From the NCBI RefSeq assembly GCF_000759715.1, contig NZ_BBLU01000007.1, forward strand, positions 107,387-171,386: a DNA stretch of 64,000 bases, in the 5' to 3' direction. The first letter of the stretch is position 1. Every line of letters begins with the position of its first letter. Positions 12,051-47,852 of the stretch are shown here, piece after piece. Source of the stretch: Demequina mangrovi (lineage in GTDB: Bacteria > Actinomycetota > Actinomycetes > Actinomycetales > Demequinaceae). Position numbers and translations under genes: made by a program. Under the pieces are notes generated by a model. The model saw nothing but the letters and a program-made list of their open reading frames with translations. It was not told the DNA's origin and made no database searches.

Positions 12051-13039
12051 TTGCTCTCCGCTCCCGCGGCGCCCCGCACCGCGATGTCCCGTGCGATCGA
12101 CGTGTAGGCGACCGCCCCCGAGGAATGGGGGTCATGTGTGATGACAGTCTGGCCGAAGCCGGGCGCCTCCGAGACGCGCACCGAACGCGGCACGGTCTGC
12201 TCGAGCGTCTCGGTCGGGAAGTGCGAGCGCACCTCGTTCGCGACCTCGCGCGCGAGGTTGGTGCGGCCGTCGTACATCGTGAGGACGATGGTCGACACAT
12301 GGATGCCCTGATTGAGGTGCTTACGCACCATCTCGACGGTACGCATGAGCTGGGTCAGCCCCTCGAGCGCGTAGTACTCGCACTGGATGGGGATCATCAC
12401 CTCGGTGGCGACGACCATGGCGTTGAGCGTGAGGAGCCCCAGGCTCGGAGGGCAGTCGATGAAGACGTAGTCGAGATCCTTGCCGTGACCCTCGAGCAGC
12501 TCCTTGAGCGCATCGTGGAGCCTGAACTCGCGCCGCACCACCGACACGAGCTCGATGTCCGCGCCCGCGAGATCGATCGTGGCCGGCACGCACCACAGGG
12601 TGTCGATGTCGGGGCATCGCTGCGCGACCTTGTGCATGGGGGTGTCGTCGAGCAGCACCTCGTAGATCGAGGGGGTGCCGGAGCGGTGCTCGACACCCAG
12701 CGCCGTCGAGGCGTTGCCCTGCGGGTCGGCATCGACCACGAGCACGTTCGCGCCGCGCTTGGCCAGCGCCGCAGCCACGTTGACGGAGGTGGTGGTCTTC
12801 CCTACCCCGCCCTTCTGGTTGGACACGGCGATGATGCGGGTGCGAGGGGGCTTCGGGAAGTCGGCCGCCTCCAGCTCGCGCCTGTGCCGCTCGGTGGCCA
12901 TCATCTCGGCTGCCAAGGGGCTGCCGGCATCGTCCGCGAGGCCATCGAACGGATCTCCCGTTTCACGTGAAACAGCGGTGGCGCTGCCGCCCAGTGGGTC
13001 ACCTGACACGATCGGATCGTGCATGTTGTCGCTGGACAC
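12047..13039 (-). CDS. parA: Chromosome-partitioning ATPase ParA
   Basis: A Walker-type ATPase that drives segregation of ParB-parS complexes from the nucleoid. The deviant Walker A is NQKGGVGKTTTSVN, preceded by RIIAVS; VVDADPQGNAS and FIDCPPSLGLLTLNA are the switch and Walker B regions. I start at the GTG at 13039 because AGAAGGGA lies five bases upstream; this gives 330 residues with a ~70-residue variable leader. Other in-frame starts lie at 13072, 13111 and at ATG 13024. One parS lies inside this leader (12960-12973) and is translated as VSRET. A second lies just upstream (13087-13100). Confidence 0.94.
   Translation of the reverse strand: MSSDNMHDPIVSGDPLGGSATAVSRETGDPFDGLADDAGSPLAAEMMATERHRRELEAADFPKPPRTRIIAVSNQKGGVGKTTTSVNVAAALAKRGANVLVVDADPQGNASTALGVEHRSGTPSIYEVLLDDTPMHKVAQRCPDIDTLWCVPATIDLAGADIELVSVVRREFRLHDALKELLEGHGKDLDYVFIDCPPSLGLLTLNAMVVATEVMIPIQCEYYALEGLTQLMRTVEMVRKHLNQGIHVSTIVLTMYDGRTNLAREVANEVRSHFPTETLEQTVPRSVRVSEAPGFGQTVITHDPHSSGAVAYTSIARDIAVRGAAGAESK
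12960..12973. promoter_or_regulatory. parS: parS site 1 (inside parA)
   Basis: GTTTCACGTGAAAC, a perfect 14-bp palindrome and the core of the conserved bacterial parS. It lies within the 5' coding part of parA. ParB should load here. Confidence 0.95.
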
Positions 13040-16389: not shown

Positions 16390-16504
16390 CCACCATCACG
16401 GCCCCGCACCATGTGAGCGACACGCGTCATCGCGGTAACGAGCAGGTGACGGGCCATGCACCGACTGTGAGCAACTCTGTGGAAACAACTTGGGGGTGAC
16501 GCCA

Positions 16505-17902
16505 GTGGCGGCAGAGCCTGCCCCGGAATCGATCGACGCGGTGTGGCGAGGAGCACTCGACTTCCTGACGGAGGACGGGTCGCTGAGCGCACAGGCGCGA
16601 TCGTTCCTTCGGCTCGTGAAGCCGCTGGCGGTGGTCGAGGACAACGTGTTCCTCGCCGTCGCCGAGGACTTCACCAAGAACTATGTCGAGACGACCCTGC
16701 GCGGCCCGGTCACCGAGGCGCTGAGCGAGGTCATCGGCCGCGACGTGCGCATCGCCGTGACCGTCGACGCGTCGGTCACCCCTCCGGCCCCGGCCGAGGA
16801 CGGTGCCGCAGCTGAGGATGTCCCGCGTCCGCCGATGCGTCGCCCCGAGCCGGCGCCAGCGCCTGTGGTCGAGGACCCGCACCTCAACCCGAGGTACACC
16901 TTCGACACGTTCGTCATCGGTCCCTCGAACCGCTTCGCGCACGCAGCCGCTCTGGCCGTGGCCGAATCGCCTGGTAAGACCTACAACCCCCTGTTCATCT
17001 ACGGAGGGTCCGGGCTGGGCAAGACGCACCTGCTGCACGCGATCGGGCACTACACGCGGCACCTCAAGCCGCAGACCCGGGTGCGCTACGTGAACTCCGA
17101 GGAGTTCACCAACGACTTCATCAACTCGATCCGTGACGACCGTTCGCTCAGCTTCAAGCGCACGTACCGCGAGGTCGACGTCCTCCTCATCGACGACATC
17201 CAGTTCCTTCAGGGCAAGGAGCAGACGCTCGAGGAGTTCTTCCACACCTTCAACGCGCTTCACAACGCCGGCAAGCACGTGGTCATCACCTCGGACGTGA
17301 GCCCGCGCTATCTCGACGGCATCGAGGAGCGCATGCGGACCCGCTTCGAGTGGGGCCTCATGACCGATGTCCAGCCCCCGGACCTCGAGACCCGCGTCGC
17401 GATCCTCCGGAAGAAGGCCGCAGCCGATGCCGTCCAGGCGCCGTCGGACGTGCTCGAGTACATCGCCTCGAACATCACGAGCAACATCCGCGAGCTCGAG
17501 GGCGCCCTGATCCGTGTCACGGCCTTCGCCGCCCTCAACCGCCAGCCGGTCGATCTCTCGCTGGCCCAGGTGGTGCTCAAGGACCTCATCTCCGACGACG
17601 ACTCCGAGATCACGGCGGCCGCGATCATCGGCAAGACGGCCGAGTACTTCGACATCTCGCTCGAGGAGCTCACCGGCACCAGCCGATCCCGTGTCTTCGT
17701 GACCGCGCGACAGATCGCCATGTACCTGTGCCGGCAGCTCACCGACCTCTCTCTTCCCAAGATCGGCGAGCACTTCGGCGGCAAGGACCACACCACGGTC
17801 ATGTATGCGGTCAAGAAGGTCGAGGACCAGATCGCGCAGCGTCGCCAGATGTACAACCAGGTCAACGAGATCCACGCCCGCATCAAGCAGTCGCGCGCGT
17901 AA
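16505..17902 (+). CDS. dnaA: Chromosomal replication initiator DnaA
   Basis: DnaA is the AAA+ ATPase that opens oriC and loads the helicase. Domain I is at residues 1-80 (IDAVWRGALDFL) and a Pro/Ala-rich linker at 80-125. The AAA+ domain has Walker A GGSGLGKTHLL near 167-177 and Walker B LLIDDIQFL near 229-237. The DNA-binding domain IV carries GKDHTTVMYAVKKVE near 426-440. I choose GTG 16505 because GGGGGTGA lies five bases upstream; in-frame GTG 16496 and TTG 16490 are alternatives and change only a few residues. The C terminus ends NEIHARIKQSRA. Confidence 0.97.
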   Translation: MAAEPAPESIDAVWRGALDFLTEDGSLSAQARSFLRLVKPLAVVEDNVFLAVAEDFTKNYVETTLRGPVTEALSEVIGRDVRIAVTVDASVTPPAPAEDGAAAEDVPRPPMRRPEPAPAPVVEDPHLNPRYTFDTFVIGPSNRFAHAAALAVAESPGKTYNPLFIYGGSGLGKTHLLHAIGHYTRHLKPQTRVRYVNSEEFTNDFINSIRDDRSLSFKRTYREVDVLLIDDIQFLQGKEQTLEEFFHTFNALHNAGKHVVITSDVSPRYLDGIEERMRTRFEWGLMTDVQPPDLETRVAILRKKAAADAVQAPSDVLEYIASNITSNIRELEGALIRVTAFAALNRQPVDLSLAQVVLKDLISDDDSEITAAAIIGKTAEYFDISLEELTGTSRSRVFVTARQIAMYLCRQLTDLSLPKIGEHFGGKDHTTVMYAVKKVEDQIAQRRQMYNQVNEIHARIKQSRA

Positions 17903-17926: not shown

Positions 17927-18007
17927 TTCCTGACGAACGTTTCGAGCGCTTCGGCGCGCCCGCGAGGCACCGCGCGGCTCCCGAGCGCCCGAAACGGTGC
18001 TCAGGAG
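17927..18007. repeat. oriC hairpin repeat, unit 1
   Basis: Forward arm TTCCTGACGAACGTTTCG (17927-17944) faces reverse arm CGAAACGGTGCTCAGGAG (17990-18007). Over the 15-base core, 11 positions can pair. The arm starts are 63 bp apart. The reverse arm is followed by GATCCTCCCGG, also found after unit 4. Confidence 0.8.
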
Positions 18008-18095
18008 CGATCCTCCCGGGCGCCCCGGCGCATCGTCCCCGCGGCCCCGCCGCGACGTCGCCTTGAGGACGTTCGCGCATCGTCGCTGTGGTGCC

Positions 18096-18175
18096 GTCCT
18101 GACGCACGAATCGGGGAGCCGGCGGGCCGGGACGATGCCCGGAGCCCCGGAACGGCCCGAAACGTGCGTCAGAAC
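18096..18175. repeat. oriC hairpin repeat, unit 2
   Basis: Forward arm GTCCTGACGCACGAATCG (18096-18113) and reverse arm CGAAACGTGCGTCAGAAC (18158-18175), starts 62 bp apart. Thirteen of 15 core positions pair. Compared with unit 3, GACGAACG has become GACGCACG and the facing arm has changed to match. A GGACGATGC 9-mer lies in the loop (18130-18138). Confidence 0.82.
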
Positions 18176-18461
18176 GGGTTCTGCGGGCGATAGACCCGTC
18201 CCCGCCTCGCTCGGCCCGACCCGTACGGCTCGTCGCCCCCGGCGTCGCCGGCTGTCGACGCATGCGGGAGCGCCTCCCACCCCACCGGCCACGTCGCCCG
18301 ACCCGAGCTGCCCGCGCGTTCCCTGGTCGCTCGCCACGGCGCCTTCCGTCCTGCCGCTGCGCCGGGCCCGCGCCGCGCCGTGCGCGCCTCAGGAGAACGG
18401 TTCCCCACGGAGGATTCGCGGCACTCGGGCTGCGCGACGCGTCGCGCGCGCCCGACGGGGT

Positions 18462-18530
18462 CGAAACCGTCGTCAGGAGCGGTCCTCAGCGTGCTCAGGG
18501 ACCACCGTCGACGCGACCGCCCCTGAGCAC
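18462..18530. repeat. oriC repeat, single reverse arm plus short hairpin
   Basis: A reverse arm CGAAACCGTCGTCAGGAG (18462-18479) has only a degenerate forward partner near 18387-18404. It is followed by a separate 10-bp perfect inverted repeat, GTGCTCAGGG (18491-18500) and CCCTGAGCAC (18521-18530). Confidence 0.65.
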
Positions 18531-18599
18531 GCCGCATGCGCGCGCACCGTGCCCTCGTACGCCGGAGAGGCCTTCCACCGACGACATCGCTCAGAGCGG

Positions 18600-18678
18600 C
18601 TCCTGACGAACGTTTCGGGGGCTCCGACGGATGAAGGGGCCGAGGAGCGCGCCGAGGACCCGGATTCGTTCGTCAGAA
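18600..18678. repeat. oriC hairpin repeat, unit 3
   Basis: Forward arm CTCCTGACGAACGTTTCG (18600-18617) and reverse arm CGGATTCGTTCGTCAGAA (18661-18678), starts 61 bp apart. CTGACGAACG and CGTTCGTCAG pair perfectly over ten bases. Confidence 0.82.
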
Positions 18679-18766
18679 AGCGATATGACGCGACCTATCG
18701 CCCGAGGGCGCACGCCGATGGTCGAGGCGACGGGCGCGAGCTCCCGCGGCCGGGCATTCCTGAGGC

Positions 18767-18845
18767 GTCCTGACGAAGGAATCAGGCCGTCTCTCACCGC
18801 GACACGCGCGCGACGCGCCGGGACGACCGAAACGTTCGCCACAAC
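18767..18845. repeat. oriC hairpin repeat, unit 4
   Basis: Forward arm GTCCTGACGAAGGAATCA (18767-18784) and reverse arm CGAAACGTTCGCCACAAC (18828-18845), starts 61 bp apart. It is the most diverged unit; about 9 of 15 core positions pair. Confidence 0.7.
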
Positions 18846-19013
18846 GGATCCTCCCGGCGCGAGCGTGATCAGGGCGGCACCATCCGCGAGGCCGCGACGC
18901 ACCCGATACGTCCCCTCACCCGCGCGCACGAGGACCGACGCCGCCTCCGGAGCGGACCCTCATGGGCCGCTACGTCCCATCTGAGGCCCTGAGAGCCCTA
19001 TTTCCCTCACAAA

Positions 19014-19059
19014 TGTGGAAAACTCTGTGGACGCCCGTGGACAGCATGCTCAGTCCACA
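19014..19059. promoter_or_regulatory. DnaA-box-like cluster in oriC
   Basis: Compared with TTATCCACA/TTGTCCACA, this stretch has TGTGGAAAA (19014-19022), TGTGGACGC (19026-19034), CGTGGACAG (19036-19044) and CAGTCCACA (19051-19059), each 7-8 of 9 matches. A further TTCTCCACA lies at 19248-19256. None is a perfect box. Confidence 0.65.
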
Positions 19060-19164
19060 GGGGACGGCCTGTGAAGAATTACAGGAATCCCGGGGTGGTC
19101 GATCCGCCCGTCCCAAGCCCGTCCCCAGACGCAGCTGGACTCGCCCTCAGGATTCGCACATGAT

Positions 19165-19250
19165 GAATCACAAGTTTTCCAGGCGCGACGCGAGAACTCC
19201 ACAGAATCCACGGTCCCTAATACGACTATGAGACCAACTTCTTGTGATTC
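19165..19250. repeat. Inverted repeat in the AT-richer part of oriC
   Basis: GAATCACAAG (19165-19174) and CTTGTGATTC (19241-19250) are perfect 10-bp complements enclosing 66 bp of relatively AT-rich sequence (including CTAATACGACTATGAGACC). The enclosed segment is a candidate duplex-unwinding element. Confidence 0.6.
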
Positions 19251-19333
19251 TCCACATGGCCTTCATCTGAGCCCGCGCGCCGACGCCCGCCCGCCGGGTG
19301 GAAGGGCCTCCCGGCATCGTCGGACCCGTGGCA

Positions 19334-19339
19334 TAGTCT
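19334..19339 (+). promoter_or_regulatory. -10 element upstream of dnaN
   Basis: TAGTCT at 19334-19339 lies 24 bp before the dnaN ATG, leaving room for the ribosome site AGAGGAG (19352-19358). No clear -35 is visible. Confidence 0.4.
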
Positions 19340-19363
19340 GTGTTCGGAATCAGAGGAGCAAGC

Positions 19364-20491
19364 ATGAAGTTCACCGTCGAGCGCGACGTTCTGGCAGACG
19401 CCGTCGCATGGACGTCGCGTGCCGTGCCGGCACGCCCCCCGGTCCCCGTACTCGCGGGCGTCCGCATCACCGCGGACGCCGAGGGTCTCGTGCGTCTCGC
19501 GAGCTTCGACTACGAGGTGTCCGCGCGCGGTGAGTTCCCCGCCGATGTCGAGGAGGCCGGCGAGGTCCTCGTCAGCGGGCGTCTCCTGCGCGAGATCGCG
19601 AACGCGCTCCCGCACAAGCCGGTCGAGCTGTCGCTCGAGGGCACCAAGGTGTCCGTGACGTGCGGCGCCTCGCGCTTCACGCTCGCGACGATGCCGGTCG
19701 ACCAGTACCCCTCGCTTCCCGAGCTTCCCGAGCACTCCGGCACCATCGACGGCGCAACGCTGCAGCAGGCGGTCGCGCAGGTGACCTCGGCAGCCTCGCG
19801 TGACGAGACGCTCCCGATCCTCACCGGCGTGCGGGTCGAGATCGAGGGCTCGCACATCTCGCTGCTCGCGACCGATCGCTACCGCCTCGCGCTGCGCGAG
19901 CTCGAGTGGACGCCGTCGCAGCCCGACATCAGCGCCGTGGCCCTGGTGCGAGCGAAGACCCTGGCAGACACCGCGAAGGCGCTCGGTGCCGGTGAGGTCA
20001 CCGTCGCGCTGAGCTCCGGTCAGGGCATGGACCTCATCGGTTTCGAGGCCGGCGGCCTGGTCACCACGTCGCTGCTCATGGACGGCGATTACCCGCAGGT
20101 GCGCCGCCTGTTCCCCGACTCGAGCCCCATCACGGCGACCGTCCGCACGCAGGACCTCATCGACGCCACCCGACGCGTCGCGCTCGTCGCCGAGCGGAAC
20201 TCGTCGGTGCGGCTGGCCTTCGCCGAGGGCGAGGTCACCCTCGACGCCGGGCAGTCCGACGACGCCCAGGCCTCCGAGGCGCTCACCGCGCACCTCCACG
20301 GCGAGCCCATCACCGTCGCGTTCAACCCGCAGTACCTGCTCGACGGCCTCTCGGCGCTGGGCAGCGACTTCGTGCAGCTGGGCTTCACTCAGGAGACCAA
20401 GCCCGTCGAGTTCGTCGGGCTCTCCGAGCCGGGTGGCGAGGTCGCGGCGGACTTCCGCTACCTCCTCGTGCCCATCCGTATCGCCTCGTAG
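19364..20491 (+). CDS. dnaN: DNA polymerase III beta sliding clamp DnaN
   Basis: The ring-shaped clamp that tethers DNA polymerase III and binds many replication and repair partners. The 375-residue protein begins [20 protein letters not shown] and has the three-fold repeated clamp domain, with characteristic [14 protein letters not shown] in the middle and the C-terminal [13 protein letters not shown] 19364 has AGAGGAG six bases upstream; the frame upstream to 19340 is not needed. The stop shares one base with the recF GTG (TAGTG). Confidence 0.97.
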
Positions 20492-22475: not shown

Positions 22476-23255
22476 ATGACCGACCAGACCATCACCGACG
22501 AGAACGAGACCGTCACCGACGCGCCCAAGAAGCAGAACTGGTTCGCGCGCCACAAGATTCTCACCGGAGTCGGAGCCGTCGCCGTCATCGCGATCGCCAT
22601 GAACACCGGCGGCGGCGACGAGGCTCCCGCCGAGGACGATGCAGCGACCGTCGAGCAGCAGATCGAGGACGCGGCGGACGCCGAGGTCGACGAGGTCGAC
22701 GAGGCCCAGCCGGCGGCCGACGCCGAGGCTGACGAGGCCGATGCGGCCGCCGAGGTGGTCGTCGAGGATGAACCCGAGAACGCGAAGCCGGAGGCGCCGA
22801 GCAAGGAGGCCGAGCAGGCCCTCGAGCAGGCGGAGTCCTACCTCGAGTTCTCCTCCTTCTCCGAGGCGGGCCTCTTCGATCAGCTCACGTCCGACTACGG
22901 CAGCCAGTTCACCGACGAGGCCGCCACCTGGGCGCTCGAGAACGTCGAGGTGAACTGGAAGGACGAGGCCCTCGAGCAGGCGCAGTCGTACATCGACACC
23001 ATGCCCTTCTCGGAGGCGGGTCTCTACGACCAGATGACGAGCGAGTACGGCAGCCAGTTCACTGCGAAGCAGGCCGAGTACGCGGTCGCGAACGTCGAGG
23101 TGGACTGGATGGCCGAGGCGGTCGAGCAGGCCGAGTCCTACCTCGACACGATGACGTTCAGCCGCGCGGGCCTCATCGACCAGATGACGAGCGAGTACGG
23201 CAGCCAGTTCACCCAGGCGCAGGCGGAGCACGCCGCGAACCAGGTCGGGTTCTGA
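22476..23255 (+). CDS. Membrane-anchored protein with three Ltp repeats
   Basis: A 259-residue protein with a short cytoplasmic N terminus, one membrane helix (about residues 28-43, ILTGVGAVAVIAIA), an acidic Ala/Glu/Asp-rich spacer (48-108) and three tandem 48-residue repeats. Each repeat has the form E-ALEQAESYL, F-EAGL-DQ-TS-YGSQFT, then A-WA-ENVEV-W. This is the Ltp (host cell surface-exposed lipoprotein) domain family; streptococcal phage Ltp blocks injection of superinfecting phage DNA. No lipobox cysteine is visible, so anchoring is by the helix. It interrupts the usual dciA-gyrB junction and has its own flanking terminator. A surface or phage-exclusion role is inferred from the domain only. 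Confidence 0.82.
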   Translation: MTDQTITDENETVTDAPKKQNWFARHKILTGVGAVAVIAIAMNTGGGDEAPAEDDAATVEQQIEDAADAEVDEVDEAQPAADAEADEADAAAEVVVEDEPENAKPEAPSKEAEQALEQAESYLEFSSFSEAGLFDQLTSDYGSQFTDEAATWALENVEVNWKDEALEQAQSYIDTMPFSEAGLYDQMTSEYGSQFTAKQAEYAVANVEVDWMAEAVEQAESYLDTMTFSRAGLIDQMTSEYGSQFTQAQAEHAANQVGF

Positions 23256-42253: not shown

Positions 42254-43060
42254 TCAGCGCGAGACGGCCTGCGCGTCCTTGGCCGTGAGCCGCTGGGCGA
42301 TCGCGAGCGGGACCACCGACACGACCGCGAGGATCACGGCGATCACCGCGACCACCGGCGCCTGGTTGGGCCGGAACATGTTCTGGAGGATCCACAGCGG
42401 AAGCGTGGTGACGCCAGGGCCGGCGGTGAACGTGGTGACGATGATCTCGTCGAAGCTCAGCGCGAAGGCCAGCAGGCCGCCGGCCAGCAGCGCCGACTTC
42501 AGCCGCGGGAAGGTGACGAGCCGGAACGTGGTGAACAGCCCCGCGCCGAGGTCCATCGAGGCCTCCTCGAGGCGCGTGCCCGAGGCGTTGAGCCGTGCGA
42601 AGGCGTTGTTGTAGACGGTGACGATGCAGAACGTCGCGTGCGCGACGATGAGCGTCCACACCCCGAGCTGCACGCCCACGATGGTGCGGAAGGCGTTGTT
42701 GAGCGCGATGCCGGTGACGATGCCGGGCAGCGCGATCGGCAGCACGATGAGCAGGTTCACGCTCTCCTTGCCGAAGAACCGGTGCCGCGACAGGGCCATC
42801 GCCGCGAGGGTGCCGAGCACCAGCGCGATCGCGGAGGCGACCAGCGCGACGAGCACCGAGGTGCCGAGCGCGTGCAGCGCGCCCTCGCTCTGCAGCGCGC
42901 GCCCCCACCACTCGAGCGTGAAGCCCGGCGGCGGCCACGAGAGGCTCTCGGACGTGCTGATCGAGTTGAGGAAGACCACGCCGAGCGGCAGGTAGATGAG
43001 CGCGAGCACCACGGCGGTGACACCGCCGAGCACCCAACGTGCGGCACGACCGAGCTGCAT
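42254..43060 (-). CDS. Polyamine-type ABC transporter permease (PotC-like)
   Basis: A 268-residue inner-membrane permease with six hydrophobic helices. The ABC coupling motif EEASMDLGAGLFTTFRLVTFP is the EAA loop that contacts the ATPase. The periplasmic-side FNSIS-type region (VVFLNSISTSESLSWPPPGF) is typical of PotC/YdcV. ATG 43060 overlaps the stop of the upstream permease by one base. It is the last gene of the leftward ATPase-binding protein-permease-permease operon. Confidence 0.9.
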   Translation of the reverse strand: MQLGRAARWVLGGVTAVVLALIYLPLGVVFLNSISTSESLSWPPPGFTLEWWGRALQSEGALHALGTSVLVALVASAIALVLGTLAAMALSRHRFFGKESVNLLIVLPIALPGIVTGIALNNAFRTIVGVQLGVWTLIVAHATFCIVTVYNNAFARLNASGTRLEEASMDLGAGLFTTFRLVTFPRLKSALLAGGLLAFALSFDEIIVTTFTAGPGVTTLPLWILQNMFRPNQAPVVAVIAVILAVVSVVPLAIAQRLTAKDAQAVSR

Positions 43061-43926
43061 CAGAGGCTCCTGAGGGCCCCGGTCCGGCGGACCGCGGCGA
43101 GGTAGACGAGGATGATCCCGATGGGGATCAGGGAGATCGCGGCGGCGAGCGGGAGGTTGTTCGCGGCGCCGACGTTCGTGTAGACGAGGTTGCCCAGCAT
43201 CTGCGTGGTCCCGCCGACGATGCCGGTGGTGATGTAGTCGCCCAGGCTGAGGGAGAAGGCGAAGATCGAGCCCGCGATGATCGCCGGCCGGATCATCGGC
43301 AGCACCACCGCGGTGAGGGTGCGCCAACCGCGCCCGCCCAGATCAGCGGAGGCCTCGAGCAGGCGGTCGGGGACGCGGTCGAAGCCCGCGTAGATCGGCA
43401 TGATCACGTACGGCAGCCACAGGTAGGACAGCGCGAGCACCACGCCGATGATCCCGTAGCCGGGGGTGTGGAGGCCGAACGGCGACAGCACCCATTCGAT
43501 GATGCCGTCGGAGGACAGCAGCGCGCGCCACGAGTAGACCTTCACCAGGTAGGACGCCCACAGCGGCGCGAGCACCGCGATGACGAGCAGGTGCCGCAGC
43601 CGCGGACCGGCGACCTTCGCCATGAAGAACGCGACCGGCACCGCGATGAGGACGTCGATCACCGTGACGAGCGCGGCGATCCCTAGCGTGCGCAGCGTGA
43701 CGGTCCGGTAGAGGGCCTCGGTCACCACCTCGACCACGTTCTCGGTGGTCCACTCGATCTGCACCTGACCGGTGAGCTCGTCGACCGTCCAGAAGGCGGT
43801 GACGAGCAGCGCCGACAGCGCGACCACGTAGACGAGGCCGAGCCACAGCACGGGCGCGGTGAGCAGACCGGCGAGCCGGAGGCGCCGGCGAGGGGCGAGA
43901 AACGCGGAGACGCGGTGCGTGGTCAT
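43060..43926 (-). CDS. Polyamine-type ABC transporter permease (PotB-like)
   Basis: A 288-residue permease, partner of the PotC-like protein. Six membrane helices, the EAA loop LLEASADLGGRGWRTLTAVVLPM, and the conserved GDYITTGIVGG before the last helices are characteristic of PotB/YdcU. It follows the binding-protein gene across an 88-bp gap that holds a large palindrome. Confidence 0.9.
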   Translation of the reverse strand: MTTHRVSAFLAPRRRLRLAGLLTAPVLWLGLVYVVALSALLVTAFWTVDELTGQVQIEWTTENVVEVVTEALYRTVTLRTLGIAALVTVIDVLIAVPVAFFMAKVAGPRLRHLLVIAVLAPLWASYLVKVYSWRALLSSDGIIEWVLSPFGLHTPGYGIIGVVLALSYLWLPYVIMPIYAGFDRVPDRLLEASADLGGRGWRTLTAVVLPMIRPAIIAGSIFAFSLSLGDYITTGIVGGTTQMLGNLVYTNVGAANNLPLAAAISLIPIGIILVYLAAVRRTGALRSL

Positions 43927-43972
43927 GGTTCCTTAGGGGTGTCTCGGGTGCGTCCGGCGACCGCCGGGCGGC

Positions 43973-44008
43973 GGCGCGGGGGGACGATGCGCATCGTCCC
44001 CCCGCGCC
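43973..44008. terminator. Perfect 36-bp palindrome between binding protein and permease genes
   Basis: Two 18-base arms (43973-43990 and 43991-44008) are exact complements with no loop; the centre is GGACGATGCGCATCGTCC, two facing copies of the GGACGATGC word. It sits six bases after the binding-protein stop. It probably reduces transcription into the permease genes so that more binding protein is made. Confidence 0.75.
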
Positions 44009-44014
44009 GGGGCA

Positions 44015-45178
44015 TCAGCCCTTGATCTCCTGCCAGGCCTTGGTCCACTCGGAGTAGTCGACGCACTCGACGTCCTCACGGCCGTCGACGCAGTCGCTCA
44101 CGGGGGTGGTCCAGTACCAGATCTGCGACGCGTACTCCTCGTCGCCCGCGTGGTACGCCTCGCAGTCGTCGCGGAAGTCGCACGCGGCCTCGGAGGACGG
44201 GGCCTCGCCGAAGTACGCGGTCGCCGTCGCGTTGATCTCGGGGCTGGCGATGTGGTCGAGCCACGCGTACGCGCAGTTCGGGGCCTCGGTCTCGGACGCG
44301 ATCATCCAGGTGTCGGACCAGCCGGTCGCGCCCTCCTCGGGCAGGACCACGTCGGTGGTGCCGGTGCTGATCGAGTTCTGGATGACCTGCCACGTGGTGC
44401 CGACCACGGAGTCGCCGGACTCGAAGGCCTGGATCTCCTTGAGGTAGTCCGACCAGTACTCGCCGACGCTCTCCTTCTGCGTCTTCAGCAGCTCGACCGC
44501 GGCCGCGAACTGGTCCTCGTCCAGCGCGTACGGGTTCTCGATGCCGAGCTCGGGCGAGTGCGTCATGAGGTAGACGGCCGCGTCCGCGATGTAGATCGGG
44601 GAGTCGTAGGCCGTGACCTTGCCGTCGTAGTCCGAGGCCTTGTCGAAGACCACGTCCCAGCTGGTGGGGGCCGGGGAGACCTCCTCGGTGTTGAACATGA
44701 GGAGGTTGGCGCCGTAGCCGTGCGGGACGCCGTAGGCGACGCCGTCGACCGAGTTCCACTCCTTGTCCTTGAGGAAGCCGAAGATCCCCTCGTAGCTCTC
44801 GAGCAGGTCGGTGTTGACGGGGGACACGAGGTCCGCCGCGACGAGGCGCAGCGTGAGGTCGCCCGAGGCCGCGACCACGTCGTAGCCGCCGCTCTGCATG
44901 AGCTGGTACGCCTCGTCCGAGGTGCCGTAGGTCTTGGCCTCGACCATGCAGCCGGTGGCCTCCTCGAAGCTGGACACCCAGTCGACCGCGGGGTCGTTGG
45001 TGCCGTCCTCGACGTAGCCGGGCCACGCGAGGATCGAGACCGAGCCCTCGGTGTCGCCGAGCGACTCGAGGGCCTCGGAGCCGGAATCGGAGCTGCTGGT
45101 GCCGCACGCGGCGAGCGATGCGACCGCCATGGAGGCGATGCCGGCCCTCAGGGCCGTGCGGGGCAGGGACTTCTGCAC
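44015..45178 (-). CDS. Extracellular solute-binding lipoprotein (PotD-like)
   Basis: A 387-residue lipoprotein: signal peptide with lipobox SLAAC (Cys25), then a PotD-type fold starting VSILAWPGYVEDGTNDPAVDW. Features of polyamine/spermidine-putrescine binding proteins include GYDVVAASGDLTLRLV, YGVPHGYGANLLMFNTE and VGTTWQVIQNSI. The C-terminal ~70 residues carry six extra cysteines (ACDFRDDCEAY, SDCVDGREDVECVDY), probably disulfides. It is the second gene of the operon. The substrate is a polyamine or another small cation by family only. Confidence 0.9.
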   Translation of the reverse strand: MQKSLPRTALRAGIASMAVASLAACGTSSSDSGSEALESLGDTEGSVSILAWPGYVEDGTNDPAVDWVSSFEEATGCMVEAKTYGTSDEAYQLMQSGGYDVVAASGDLTLRLVAADLVSPVNTDLLESYEGIFGFLKDKEWNSVDGVAYGVPHGYGANLLMFNTEEVSPAPTSWDVVFDKASDYDGKVTAYDSPIYIADAAVYLMTHSPELGIENPYALDEDQFAAAVELLKTQKESVGEYWSDYLKEIQAFESGDSVVGTTWQVIQNSISTGTTDVVLPEEGATGWSDTWMIASETEAPNCAYAWLDHIASPEINATATAYFGEAPSSEAACDFRDDCEAYHAGDEEYASQIWYWTTPVSDCVDGREDVECVDYSEWTKAWQEIKG

Positions 45179-45195
45179 TGGTGCTTCCTTTCGTC

Positions 45196-45230
45196 GGGTG
45201 GTGCTGGGGTGCTGCGGTGGGTGGTGCGGG
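45196..45230 (+). other. G-rich spacer with four GGG runs
   Basis: Between the ATPase and binding-protein genes the + strand (the transcription template) has GGG runs at 45196-45198, 45206-45209, 45219-45221 and 45228-45230 within a GGTGGTGC-rich stretch. Four runs with 6-9-base loops could form a G-quadruplex. Confidence 0.4.
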
Positions 45231-45255
45231 TGGTGCGGTCTCGGGGTGCGCCGGG

Positions 45256-46263
45256 TCAGGCCGCCTCGTCCTCGAGCGGCGCCGCGGAGGCGGGCTCGAC
45301 GGAGACGGTGACGCGGTCGCCGCGCGTGCGGCGGTGGCCGGCGCCGATGTTCGGCTCGAGCGCGGTGATGCGGGCGCCCAGGCCGTCCAGGTCGACGACG
45401 ATCCGGTGCTCGGGGCCGGTGTAGATGACCTCGGCGATGGTGCCGGGGACGCCTCCTGCGGGGGCGTCGAGCAGGACGCGCTCGGGGCGCACGGCCATGG
45501 GGGCGCGGGCGAGGCCGAGCGCCTCGGCCACCTCGGGCTCGAGCAGGGTCGCGGAGCCCACGAACGAGGCGATGAAGCGGTTGCGCGGGTGGTCGTAGAC
45601 CTCGCGCGGGGTCCCGAGCTGGACCACCTCTCCGGCGTCGAACACCGCGACGCGGTCGCTCAGGGTGAGCGCCTCGTCCTGATCGTGGGTGACGAAGACG
45701 AACGTGATGCCCAGCGAGCGCTGGAGCTCCTTGAGCTCGACCTGCATCTGCTCACGCAGCTTGAGGTCGAGCGCGCCGAGCGGCTCGTCGAGCAGCAGCG
45801 CCTGCGGGCGCAGCACGATCGCCCGGGCGAGCGCGACGCGCTGGCGCTGGCCGCCGGAGAGCTCATGCGGGCGCCGGTCCTCGAGGCCCGCCAGCCTGAC
45901 CTGCCCGAGCGCCTCCTCGGCGCGGGCGCGGCGCTCCTTGCGGGCGACCCCGGCGACCTTGAGCCCGTACTCGACGTTCGCGATGACGCTGAGGTGGGGG
46001 AAGAGCGCGTAGTCCTGGAAGACCGTGTTGACCGGGCGTGCGAAGGGTGCGAGGGCGGTGACGTCCGCGCCGAAGAGCTCGACGGTGCCGCTGGTCGGCT
46101 GCTCGAAGCCCGCGATGCACCGGAGCACGGTGGTCTTGCCGGAACCCGACGGTCCGAGCATCGAGAAGAACTCCCCCGGCTCGATGTCGAGGTCGAGATC
46201 GGCGACCGCGACGGTCTCGCCGAAGCGCTTGTGCAGGCCCCTCAGGCGGATGGCTGAATCCAT
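45256..46263 (-). CDS. Polyamine-type ABC transporter ATP-binding protein (PotA-like)
   Basis: A 335-residue importer ATPase with Walker A GPSGSGKTTVLRCIAGFE near residues 37-54, Q-loop, signature LSGGQRQRVALARAI, Walker B LLLDEPLGALD and switch His in VTHDQDEAL. The C-terminal ~100 residues form the TOBE regulatory domain (APMAVRPERVLLD). It is first in the leftward operon. Its promoter region contains palindromes likely bound by the divergent GntR regulator. Confidence 0.93.
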   Translation of the reverse strand: MDSAIRLRGLHKRFGETVAVADLDLDIEPGEFFSMLGPSGSGKTTVLRCIAGFEQPTSGTVELFGADVTALAPFARPVNTVFQDYALFPHLSVIANVEYGLKVAGVARKERRARAEEALGQVRLAGLEDRRPHELSGGQRQRVALARAIVLRPQALLLDEPLGALDLKLREQMQVELKELQRSLGITFVFVTHDQDEALTLSDRVAVFDAGEVVQLGTPREVYDHPRNRFIASFVGSATLLEPEVAEALGLARAPMAVRPERVLLDAPAGGVPGTIAEVIYTGPEHRIVVDLDGLGARITALEPNIGAGHRRTRGDRVTVSVEPASAAPLEDEAA

Positions 46264-46273
46264 GCGGACTATT

Positions 46274-46340
46274 CATCTGGTTCCAGATGTCTTTCACAAG
46301 ACCCCTCGTGTAACGGTTCCATTAAATCTCTGGATCCAGA
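46274..46340. promoter_or_regulatory. Two operator palindromes between the ABC operon and the GntR gene
   Basis: CATCTGGTTCCAGATG (46274-46289) and TCTGGATCCAGA (46329-46340) share TCTGG-n2-CCAGA. Their centres are 53 bp apart, about five helical turns. Such paired dyads in a divergent promoter region fit binding by the adjacent FadR-type GntR regulator. Confidence 0.7.
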
Positions 46341-46377
46341 CCTTTCCGGTGGCGCGGCCCACCGTCACAATGGCGGG

Positions 46378-47139
46378 ATGGGACTCACCTGGGGCACGGG
46401 CGCGCATGCCGCCCGCTCCGCCACGCACGCCGCGATCTTCGCGCCGCTCGCGCCGCTCGGGCGCGCGGAGGCCGTCGCCCAGCGCCTCGCCGACGCGATC
46501 CACCTGGGGCTCCTCGAGCAGGGGGAGCGCCTCCCCACGGAGCAGGACCTGGGCAGGCAGTTCGGCGTCGCGACCGTGACCGCGCGCGAGGCGCTCGAGT
46601 CGCTGCGCGCCGCGGGCCTCATCGAGACGCGCCGCGGACGTGCGGGCGGCAGCTTCGTGTGCGGCAGCGGGGACGATGCACGTGCCGTGCTCATCTCGCG
46701 GCTCGCGATGCTCTCGCGCGTCGAGCTGCGCGACATGGGCCTGGTGTACGGCGTGATCGCGGGGGCGGCGGCGGAGCGCGCGGCGCTCTTCGCCACCGCC
46801 GATGAGGTCCGCTCGCTGGGCACGCTGGTCGAGGACGGCGCGGTCTCGAGCGGCGCGGCCGCGCGGCGCGCGGAGAACGGCATCCGCATCGAGGTCGCCG
46901 CGCTGTCACGCTCCGCGCGGCTCGTCGCGGAGCAGGTCCGGCTGCAGTCCGAGTTCGGCCCGCTGCTGTGGATCGCCCTGCAGGAGCACGGAGTGGTGAC
47001 CGGCAACGCGGCGCGTCACCGACGCCTGGTCGAGGCGATCGGGAACGAGAGCCCCGAGGAGGCCCGCGGCATCGTCACGGAGCAGGTGGGCTGGCTGCTC
47101 GACCGCCTGCTCGCGATCCGCGAGGGCATCGAGCGATGA
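46378..47139 (+). CDS. GntR family regulator, FadR/FCD subfamily
   Basis: A 253-residue repressor. The winged helix-turn-helix is at residues ~25-95 (RLADAIHLGLLEQGERLPTEQDLGRQF, then VTAREALESLRAAGLIETRRGRAGG). The helical FCD ligand domain fills the rest, with histidines in the final part (HGVVTGNAARHRRLVEAI) that often bind a metal. A -10-like CACAAT lies six bases before the ATG, so the message is probably leaderless. It is divergent from the polyamine-type ABC operon and overlaps the following Cache gene, so it likely senses the transported compound. Confidence 0.88.
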   Translation: MGLTWGTGAHAARSATHAAIFAPLAPLGRAEAVAQRLADAIHLGLLEQGERLPTEQDLGRQFGVATVTAREALESLRAAGLIETRRGRAGGSFVCGSGDDARAVLISRLAMLSRVELRDMGLVYGVIAGAAAERAALFATADEVRSLGTLVEDGAVSSGAAARRAENGIRIEVAALSRSARLVAEQVRLQSEFGPLLWIALQEHGVVTGNAARHRRLVEAIGNESPEEARGIVTEQVGWLLDRLLAIREGIER

Positions 47140-47852
47140 TCGTCACCGCCATCGTCGAGATCGCCGACGTGCTCGGCGCGGCCCTCGCGCCCGTCTTCGC
47201 CGAGGTCCTCGACTGGCGCACGCGGCTCGAGCGCTCCCTGGGAACCGAGAGCCCGAGCGGCGGCGCGGTCGACGAGGCGGTCGAGTGGCTGGTCGCACCC
47301 GCGCTCGATGATGCGCGGCCGATGCTCGGCGCCGGCTTCGTCGCGGCCCCGGGCTACCTCGAGGACGCCCCGTGGCACCTCGCGTGGTGGCTCAGCGCGG
47401 CCAACGGTGTGGGCCTCGGCGGGCGCGAGGGGTCGCTGCGCCGCCTCGCTTCCGTGGAGAACCCGCTCGACGCCTCGTTCCACGACTACACGCGCCTCGA
47501 GTGGTGGCGGGGAGCGGTGGAGTCCGGCGGGCTCTACCTGACGGGTCCGTACATCGACTACCTCTGCACCGACGAGCTCACGCTCACGCTCACCGCGCCG
47601 GTGACGGTGGACGGTCGGCTCGCCGGCGTGGTCGGCGCCGATCTCTCGGTCGCGCGCCTCGAGCGCCTCACCGACGGCGTGCTGGGGCGTGCGCCTGTGC
47701 CCGCCGTGCTCGGGACCGCCGCGGGACGCGTGATCGCCGCCACGGATGCGGCCGTCGAGCCGGGCACGCCGGCGCGCCGGCTGGGCTCGACCGGCGAGTG
47801 GCATCCCGTCCCCGGCTGCGGCGGGACGCTCGCCGTCGCGCGCAGCGCGTGA
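47136..47852 (+). CDS. Free-standing Cache-domain protein
   Basis: A 238-residue protein with no signal peptide or membrane helix. It begins IVTAIVEIADVLGAALAPVFAEV and has the Cache ligand-binding pattern in its C-terminal half: YTRLEWWRGAVESGGLYLTGPYIDYLCTDELTLTLTAPV, then GRLAGVVGADLSV. Cache domains are normally extracellular sensors tethered to kinases or chemoreceptors; here it is soluble and translationally coupled (ATGA) to the GntR gene. Sensing or binding of the ABC substrate in the cytoplasm is plausible, perhaps to inform GntR. Inferred from context. Confidence 0.75.
   Translation: MIVTAIVEIADVLGAALAPVFAEVLDWRTRLERSLGTESPSGGAVDEAVEWLVAPALDDARPMLGAGFVAAPGYLEDAPWHLAWWLSAANGVGLGGREGSLRRLASVENPLDASFHDYTRLEWWRGAVESGGLYLTGPYIDYLCTDELTLTLTAPVTVDGRLAGVVGADLSVARLERLTDGVLGRAPVPAVLGTAAGRVIAATDAAVEPGTPARRLGSTGEWHPVPGCGGTLAVARSA

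Follow-up and report, generated by a model that had tools for sequence, protein, structure and literature searches.

A clade-specific array of inverted-pair 17-bp sites adjoins the probable replication origin of Demequina mangrovi

The 64,000-nucleotide stretch of Demequina mangrovi DNA analysed here (the window) contains the dnaA gene, recognised by a Bac_DnaA_C match, and downstream of it an open reading frame that we take to be dnaN from its place and sequence. The spacer between the two is 1,461 bp long and carries ten copies of a 17-bp motif, arranged as five convergent pairs (Table 1). The motif consensus, TCCTGACGAACGATTCG, comes from an alignment of 64 sites; this alignment and the single-site model made with it used 64 of 71 sites, the seven scoring below 20 bits being left out. 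The D. mangrovi spacer has 10 sites with at least 12 of 17 matches, where base-composition shuffles yield 0.25, and all matches of at least 12 bits in the window fall within it, the best score elsewhere in the 64 kb being 11.8. Four of the pairs had been described in a sequence-only reading of the window, and all four were recovered at the same coordinates. A fifth unit, which that reading had called partial, proved to be a real pair with a weak forward arm at 18402 and a reverse arm at 18462. It is numbered unit 3 here, and the former unit 3 becomes unit 4.

Table 1. Features of the dnaA-dnaN region in the window (positions are those of the window; spacings are from the start of the forward arm).
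Feature	Position	Strand	Remarks
dnaA, upstream flank	16490..17902	+	ORF, Bac_DnaA_C match
Unit 1 forward arm	17928..17944	+	17/17 to query consensus; PWM 31.5
Unit 1 reverse arm	17990..18006	-	62 bp on; PWM 22.4
Unit 2 forward arm	18097..18113	+	PWM 27.0
Unit 2 reverse arm	18158..18174	-	61 bp on; PWM 27.7
Unit 3 forward arm, degenerate	18402..18418	+	PWM 13.4; 8.7 with matrix of 64 stronger sites
Unit 3 reverse arm	18462..18478	-	60 bp on; PWM 24.5
Unit 4 forward arm	18601..18617	+	PWM 32.4
Unit 4 reverse arm	18662..18678	-	61 bp on; PWM 28.4
Unit 5 forward arm	18768..18784	+	PWM 29.1
Unit 5 reverse arm	18828..18844	-	60 bp on; PWM 20.1
Probable oriC core (inferred)	19000..19363	.	AT-richer, conserved among near relatives
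DnaA-box-like 9-mers, one mismatch each	19014-19022 (-), 19248-19256 (+)		within probable oriC core
dnaN, downstream flank	19364..20491	+	ORF

The distribution of the array was determined across the genus. DnaA was found in 43 of 44 Demequina genomes, and the 43 corresponding spacers were read, genome G010 being excluded for its missing DnaA. G010 is rated 99% complete, yet it gave no DnaA C-domain or HTH_ParB match and its origin region seems to be missing. The array was present in nine of the 43 spacers, with 5-10 sites in each, compared with 0-2 in the other 34. Spacer length was 903-1,461 bp in the array genomes and 365-659 bp in 31 non-array genomes, while the spacers of G003, G016 and G028 measured 952-986 bp without containing the motif. 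Long inverted repeats in these three numbered 0, 0 and 1, and examination of the long spacers of G003, G016, G028 and G017 found no such array. On a midpoint-rooted tree of DnaN and part of DnaA, the nine array genomes form one group (support 96/91), and a single change is needed. All nine members of the group retain the array; D. gelatinilytica is among the species that have it, and the nearest genomes lacking it are G009, G022, G035 and G017. The distribution is best explained by one origin of the array, in the ancestor of one Demequina clade, where the stretch from dnaA to the DnaA-box core would have gained roughly 0.5-1 kb by insertion or expansion. The sequence-only reading had looked to close relatives for conservation of the units and of their spacing. 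Both were found: the array is shared by nine Demequina genomes, and the spacing is near-fixed, with arm starts 60-62 bp apart in 28 of the 32 adjacent plus-to-minus pairs of these genomes (the four exceptions are 50, 83, 83 and 95 bp). Some arms are weak or missing, namely the D. mangrovi arm at 18402, the G042 arm at position 193 and the unit 1 reverse arm of G014, G018 and G023, which argues that not every site is essential.

Searches beyond the spacer were made at several levels of stringency. In the whole D. mangrovi genome, all three pattern matches without mismatch lay in the spacer; with one mismatch there were ten matches, three in the spacer and seven as scattered singles. When up to two mismatches were allowed, 166 matches were obtained compared with 80 for a reversed control, and weak look-alikes of the motif are common outside the spacer, in excess of that control. 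Applied to the 44 Demequina genomes at E ≤0.3, a level at which about 13 chance matches are expected and E-values are rough, the single-site model returned 72 matches: array spacers held 62, other parts of the array genomes 2, and the remaining 8 came from non-array genomes. This search used strict filters and scored part of the candidates. Three off-spacer matches within the genus (G019, G042, G004), examined with the DNA around them, consisted of one site each. Strong copies are thus not spread through the genome in the manner of a generic repeat, a prospect that the sequence-only reading had raised against itself, since the perfect matches (3/3) and 62 of the 64 single-site matches in array genomes fall in the spacer.

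The pair pattern gave a similar picture in a wider sample. It matched 8 of 47 family genomes, giving 15 distinct units that all lay in the dnaA-dnaN spacer, and the control gave 0; G023 is an array genome yet was missed by the exact pair pattern. In the named genome collection it matched ten stretches, eight of them from seven Demequina species, one from Acetobacteraceae and one from a Bacteroidales bin, and it also matched one viral contig. The Acetobacteraceae, Bacteroidales and viral matches were weak or one-sided by the weight matrix, and the array was absent there. Phage and plasmid collections contained no similar DNA, and none of 54 viral stretches with an exact arm has two sites of at least 20 bits. 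A sample of 297 genomes from 94 genera of the order was searched within the same limits as the genus, and 13 genomes outside the genus matched at E ≤0.01. In the 5-11 kb around these matches, 12 of the 13 genomes have a single site of at least 13 bits, and no further array was seen in the 297 genomes. G069 carries four plus-strand sites of at least 18 bits on one 5.4-kb contig, which was rejected as an array: its matches, like those of G191 and G239, translate (by eye) to a VLKNDSD-like stretch, and the cluster looks like an apparently repetitive coding stretch. Such coding look-alikes are false friends for motif searches.

The confinement to one locus bears on the possibility that the pairs are the remains of a MITE-like element with 17-bp terminal inverted repeats that was repeatedly inserted in the spacer. 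Such an element would account for the inverted termini, for several copies of near-constant size (28 of the 32 pairs measure 77-79 bp), and for a spacer expanded in one clade. However, dispersed genome copies, by which a MITE would be recognised, were not found: the pair pattern is restricted to the spacer in the eight matching family genomes, the single-site matches of array genomes lie there with two exceptions among 64, and phage and plasmid collections are without similar DNA. The retention of the array by all nine group members, arms that outlast the interiors between them and a phased spacing between units (below) also weigh against repeated insertion, which we regard as very improbable.

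Conservation within the spacer was compared between arms, the interiors of pairs, the linkers between pairs and the origin core. Between G008 and G006, identity was 0.81 in the arms, 0.56 in the interiors, 0.48 in the linkers and 0.80 in the oriC-proximal 365 bp, while G019 and G014 gave 0.65 for the arms and 0.89 for the core. The D. mangrovi window against three relatives gave 0.46 for arms, 0.27 for interiors, 0.35 for linkers and 0.79 for the core; the poor alignment of this array is probably due to its extra pair and other gaps. It is only in the better-aligned species that the arms are as well conserved as the oriC core, but they exceeded interiors and linkers in every species pair tested. 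Shifting the arm mask circularly never gave the observed arm identity in any of five species pairs out of five.

The gaps between pairs (n = 23) were also non-uniform, with six at 96-97 bp, seven at 105-107 bp and none in between. These two clusters, which hold 13 of the 23 gaps, differ by one helical turn, and the phase strength of the gaps is 0.72 at 10.5 bp. For successive sites of the same orientation, the best phase-zero period in a scan from 8 to 14 was 10.5 bp, for plus and for minus sites; phase zero is expected if same-orientation sites face the same side of the helix. In tests that came after the 96/106 clusters were noticed, with two orientations that are not independent, species that share ancestry and one overlapping site (G042, position 640) omitted, same-orientation phasing with all values gave V = 0.54 (P = 5e-5) and V = 0.60 (0 of 20,000 draws). 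Under the same limits, P rose to about 0.001 with unique values and to 0.014 and 0.012 when values within 2 bp were merged. The gaps by themselves gave a weaker result after removal of duplicates, with P = 0.008 for unique values at 10.5 bp, about 0.11 in a free scan and 0.04 after merging, and gaps of at least 115 bp gave P = 0.07 at 10.5 bp. Helical phasing of the array is thus supported statistically but not proven. The combination of arms better kept than interiors and linkers, a near-fixed spacing within pairs and apparent whole-turn phasing between them points to protein sites on double-stranded DNA, and several conserved motif copies in the dnaA-dnaN region are what characterises the site array of an origin-binding protein.

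An inverted pair can also form a hairpin, and the sequence-only reading had remarked that facing arms often change together, as expected if pairing matters. This holds for unit 2 and for unit 4 (its unit 3) but fails as a general property. Pairing was assessed in the 28 units with an arm spacing of 59-63 bp, the 4 of 32 pairs with other spacings being left out. Facing arms did not agree above shuffled arms in any of the 17 arm columns (lowest P = 0.27), and their summed agreement was 362 of 476 cells, compared with about 365 expected. Over 28 columns, mismatches comprised 34 G-T and 52 A-C; G-T was not favoured over A-C, and a functional plus-strand RNA is therefore not indicated. The mean fold energy of the real units (-39.70 kcal/mol) was no lower than that of units with permuted left and right halves (-39.82 kcal/mol, P = 0.54) or with halves permuted within genomes (-39.87 kcal/mol, P = 0.58), and the sole weak excess among the folding sub-tests was at arm positions 12-28 (P = 0.044). 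Any plus arm can pair with any minus arm, because both follow one consensus. Hairpins are possible, but the data give no indication that selection acts to maintain pairing; neither covariation nor a stability advantage over chimeric units was detected.

These results weigh on the alternative that the units act as RNA or single-stranded DNA hairpins, in a dnaA 3' untranslated region, a small RNA or a single-stranded origin, and that their arms are kept by pairing. Each unit can fold strongly, the average being -39.7 kcal/mol on the plus strand and -41.7 on the minus strand, and some units, such as unit 1 of G006, have longer stems; the weak excess of pairing energy at positions 12-28, and the two columns that adjoin the arms on their inner side (19 and 20, P = 0.07 each), would also fit. 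Against this stand the absence of any match excess in the 17 arm columns, the G-T and A-C counts and the equal folding of chimeras. An Rfam search gave no match in the spacer, its single match being AsdA inside dnaA, below the gathering score. A simple consensus scan found no promoter- or terminator-like site, a result that says little in a GC-rich genome, and an RNA would not predict helical phasing. We consider the hairpin explanation improbable.

If the arms are protein sites, the binder might be a known origin factor such as DnaA, ParB/Noc, MtrA or a Spo0A-like regulator. Proteins of this kind bind oriC in other bacteria, and the sequence TGACGAA, found in 4 of the 10 window arms, fits the published Spo0A box TG[TA]CGAA (PMC4285127). 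However, no Spo0A_C domain over the cut-off was found in the 44 genomes, so that Spo0A was rejected despite the box in these four arms; one sub-threshold match came from G005, a non-array genome. MtrA was likewise rejected: boxes of the form GTCACAgcg with up to one mismatch numbered 21 in the window, against 36.7 expected, and 0 between 17903 and 19363. In the window spacer, 9-mers near TTGTCCACA (up to one mismatch) occur at just two places, -350 and -116 relative to dnaN, and neither is in the array; this argues against DnaA as the binder and agrees with the sequence-only reading that the repeats are not a DnaA-box array. A DnaA paralogue was set aside, with one DnaA C-domain locus in each of 43 genomes (two overlapping matches in G011), as was a clade-wide ParB paralogue, a second HTH_ParB match being present in one of nine array genomes (G006, 40 bits, over the cut-off). 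Palindromes resembling the parS sequence TGTTTCACGTGAAACA gave three matches with one mismatch, at 12959, 13086 and 13974, and 0 in the spacer; they sit in and beside genes that we take to resemble parA and rsmG. A known factor as binder is therefore, on this evidence, very unlikely.

A GntR regulator encoded at 46378-47139 was also considered. Where origin neighbourhoods were compared, it turned up in each of the four array genomes and in none of the stretches covered for three non-array genomes (G009, G022 and G017). Genus-wide, every one of the 9 array genomes has it, as do four others (G035, G020, G028 and G037). It is not favoured as the binder, given its presence in these four non-array genomes and the lack of a motif of at least 7 bits near 46378-47139. 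The surrounding segment of the window, 43060-47852, holds ABC-transporter genes with the GntR/FCD regulator and is absent from the origin stretches covered for G009, G022 and G017. No gene exclusive to the array genomes was found in the origin stretches of seven relatives, or with the one gene followed genus-wide.

The feature is real: sites in inverted pairs form an array that adjoins oriC and is specific to one clade. Our preferred reading, to which we give a probability of roughly two in three, is that it comprises phased, inverted-pair sites for a candidate sequence-specific protein that binds double-stranded DNA, and that it was gained once. Binding of an origin regulator, one of the options offered by the sequence-only reading, is accordingly the one best matched by the conservation and geometry of the sites, from which binding is putatively deduced. 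The putative binder is probably a dedicated factor, because strong sites are practically absent elsewhere in array genomes. Sites of like orientation would lie on one face of the helix, with pairs repeating at whole helical turns. A dimer may bridge each pair, or a dimer of dimers may do so, and the pairs could stack on one face, looping or wrapping about 0.45-0.9 kb beside the DnaA-box core. The resulting complex might modulate DnaA assembly, origin unwinding or origin segregation; it is the position of the array that suggests a possible effect on initiation, on segregation or on the expression of dnaN. A bolder version, that a putative protein, 5-10 phased inverted-pair sites and a looped or wrapped complex by the DnaA-box core make up a new, dedicated origin-organising system, is tentative and falls somewhat short of even odds in our estimation. 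If true, no element described to date for the control of chromosomal replication or segregation would be like it.

The same protein-bound array could instead serve in segregation or anchoring, as a second centromere-like site, or in dnaN control, rather than in the timing of initiation. This is compatible with the preferred reading, and we judge it rather unlikely, though clearly less so than the alternatives discussed above. Centromere-like loci are dedicated, single-locus site clusters by the origin, which the array resembles, and it also lies upstream of dnaN; on the other hand, the window already has a ParB gene and parS-like sites, and the sequence singles out no one role. Plasmid iterons and partition centromeres offer a further likeness: at a single locus, a dedicated protein binds a cluster of sites that are about 17-22 bp long and often in helical phase. 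Iterons, however, repeat directly at short intervals next to a rep gene, whereas the Demequina array is chromosomal and built of inverted pairs, and no candidate gene for its binder emerged from the comparisons above.

Several origin regulators with their own motifs provide a comparison. MtrA binds several sites in the Mycobacterium tuberculosis oriC, and the Demequina array resembles these boxes in placing several putative sites for a non-DnaA protein in an actinobacterial origin region (PMC4285127). The MtrA boxes are described there as two direct GTCACAgcg-like repeats dispersed between DnaA boxes (PMC4285127), whereas the Demequina array lies away from the DnaA-box core, its 17-bp sites form inverted pairs with a 60-62 bp spacing, and the MtrA 9-mer shows no enrichment. 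AdpA at the Streptomyces oriC, CtrA at the Caulobacter Cori and Spo0A at the Bacillus oriC are likewise regulators with motifs at the origin; these motifs differ from that of the array, and the portion of the source consulted describes no set arrangement of inverted pairs, phased by whole turns, for any of the three (PMC4285127). A search of the open-access literature, covering titles and the openings of abstracts, found no paper describing the element.

The usual picture of an origin comprises DnaA boxes and an unwinding element with few further regulators. Close relatives within Demequina differ by a whole site array near oriC, which makes the evolution of origin control testable in this genus.

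Elsewhere in the window, positions 22476-23255 encode an Ltp-type surface lipoprotein with three repeats, and its neighbours presumably correspond to recF/DUF721 and gyrB, which they resemble.
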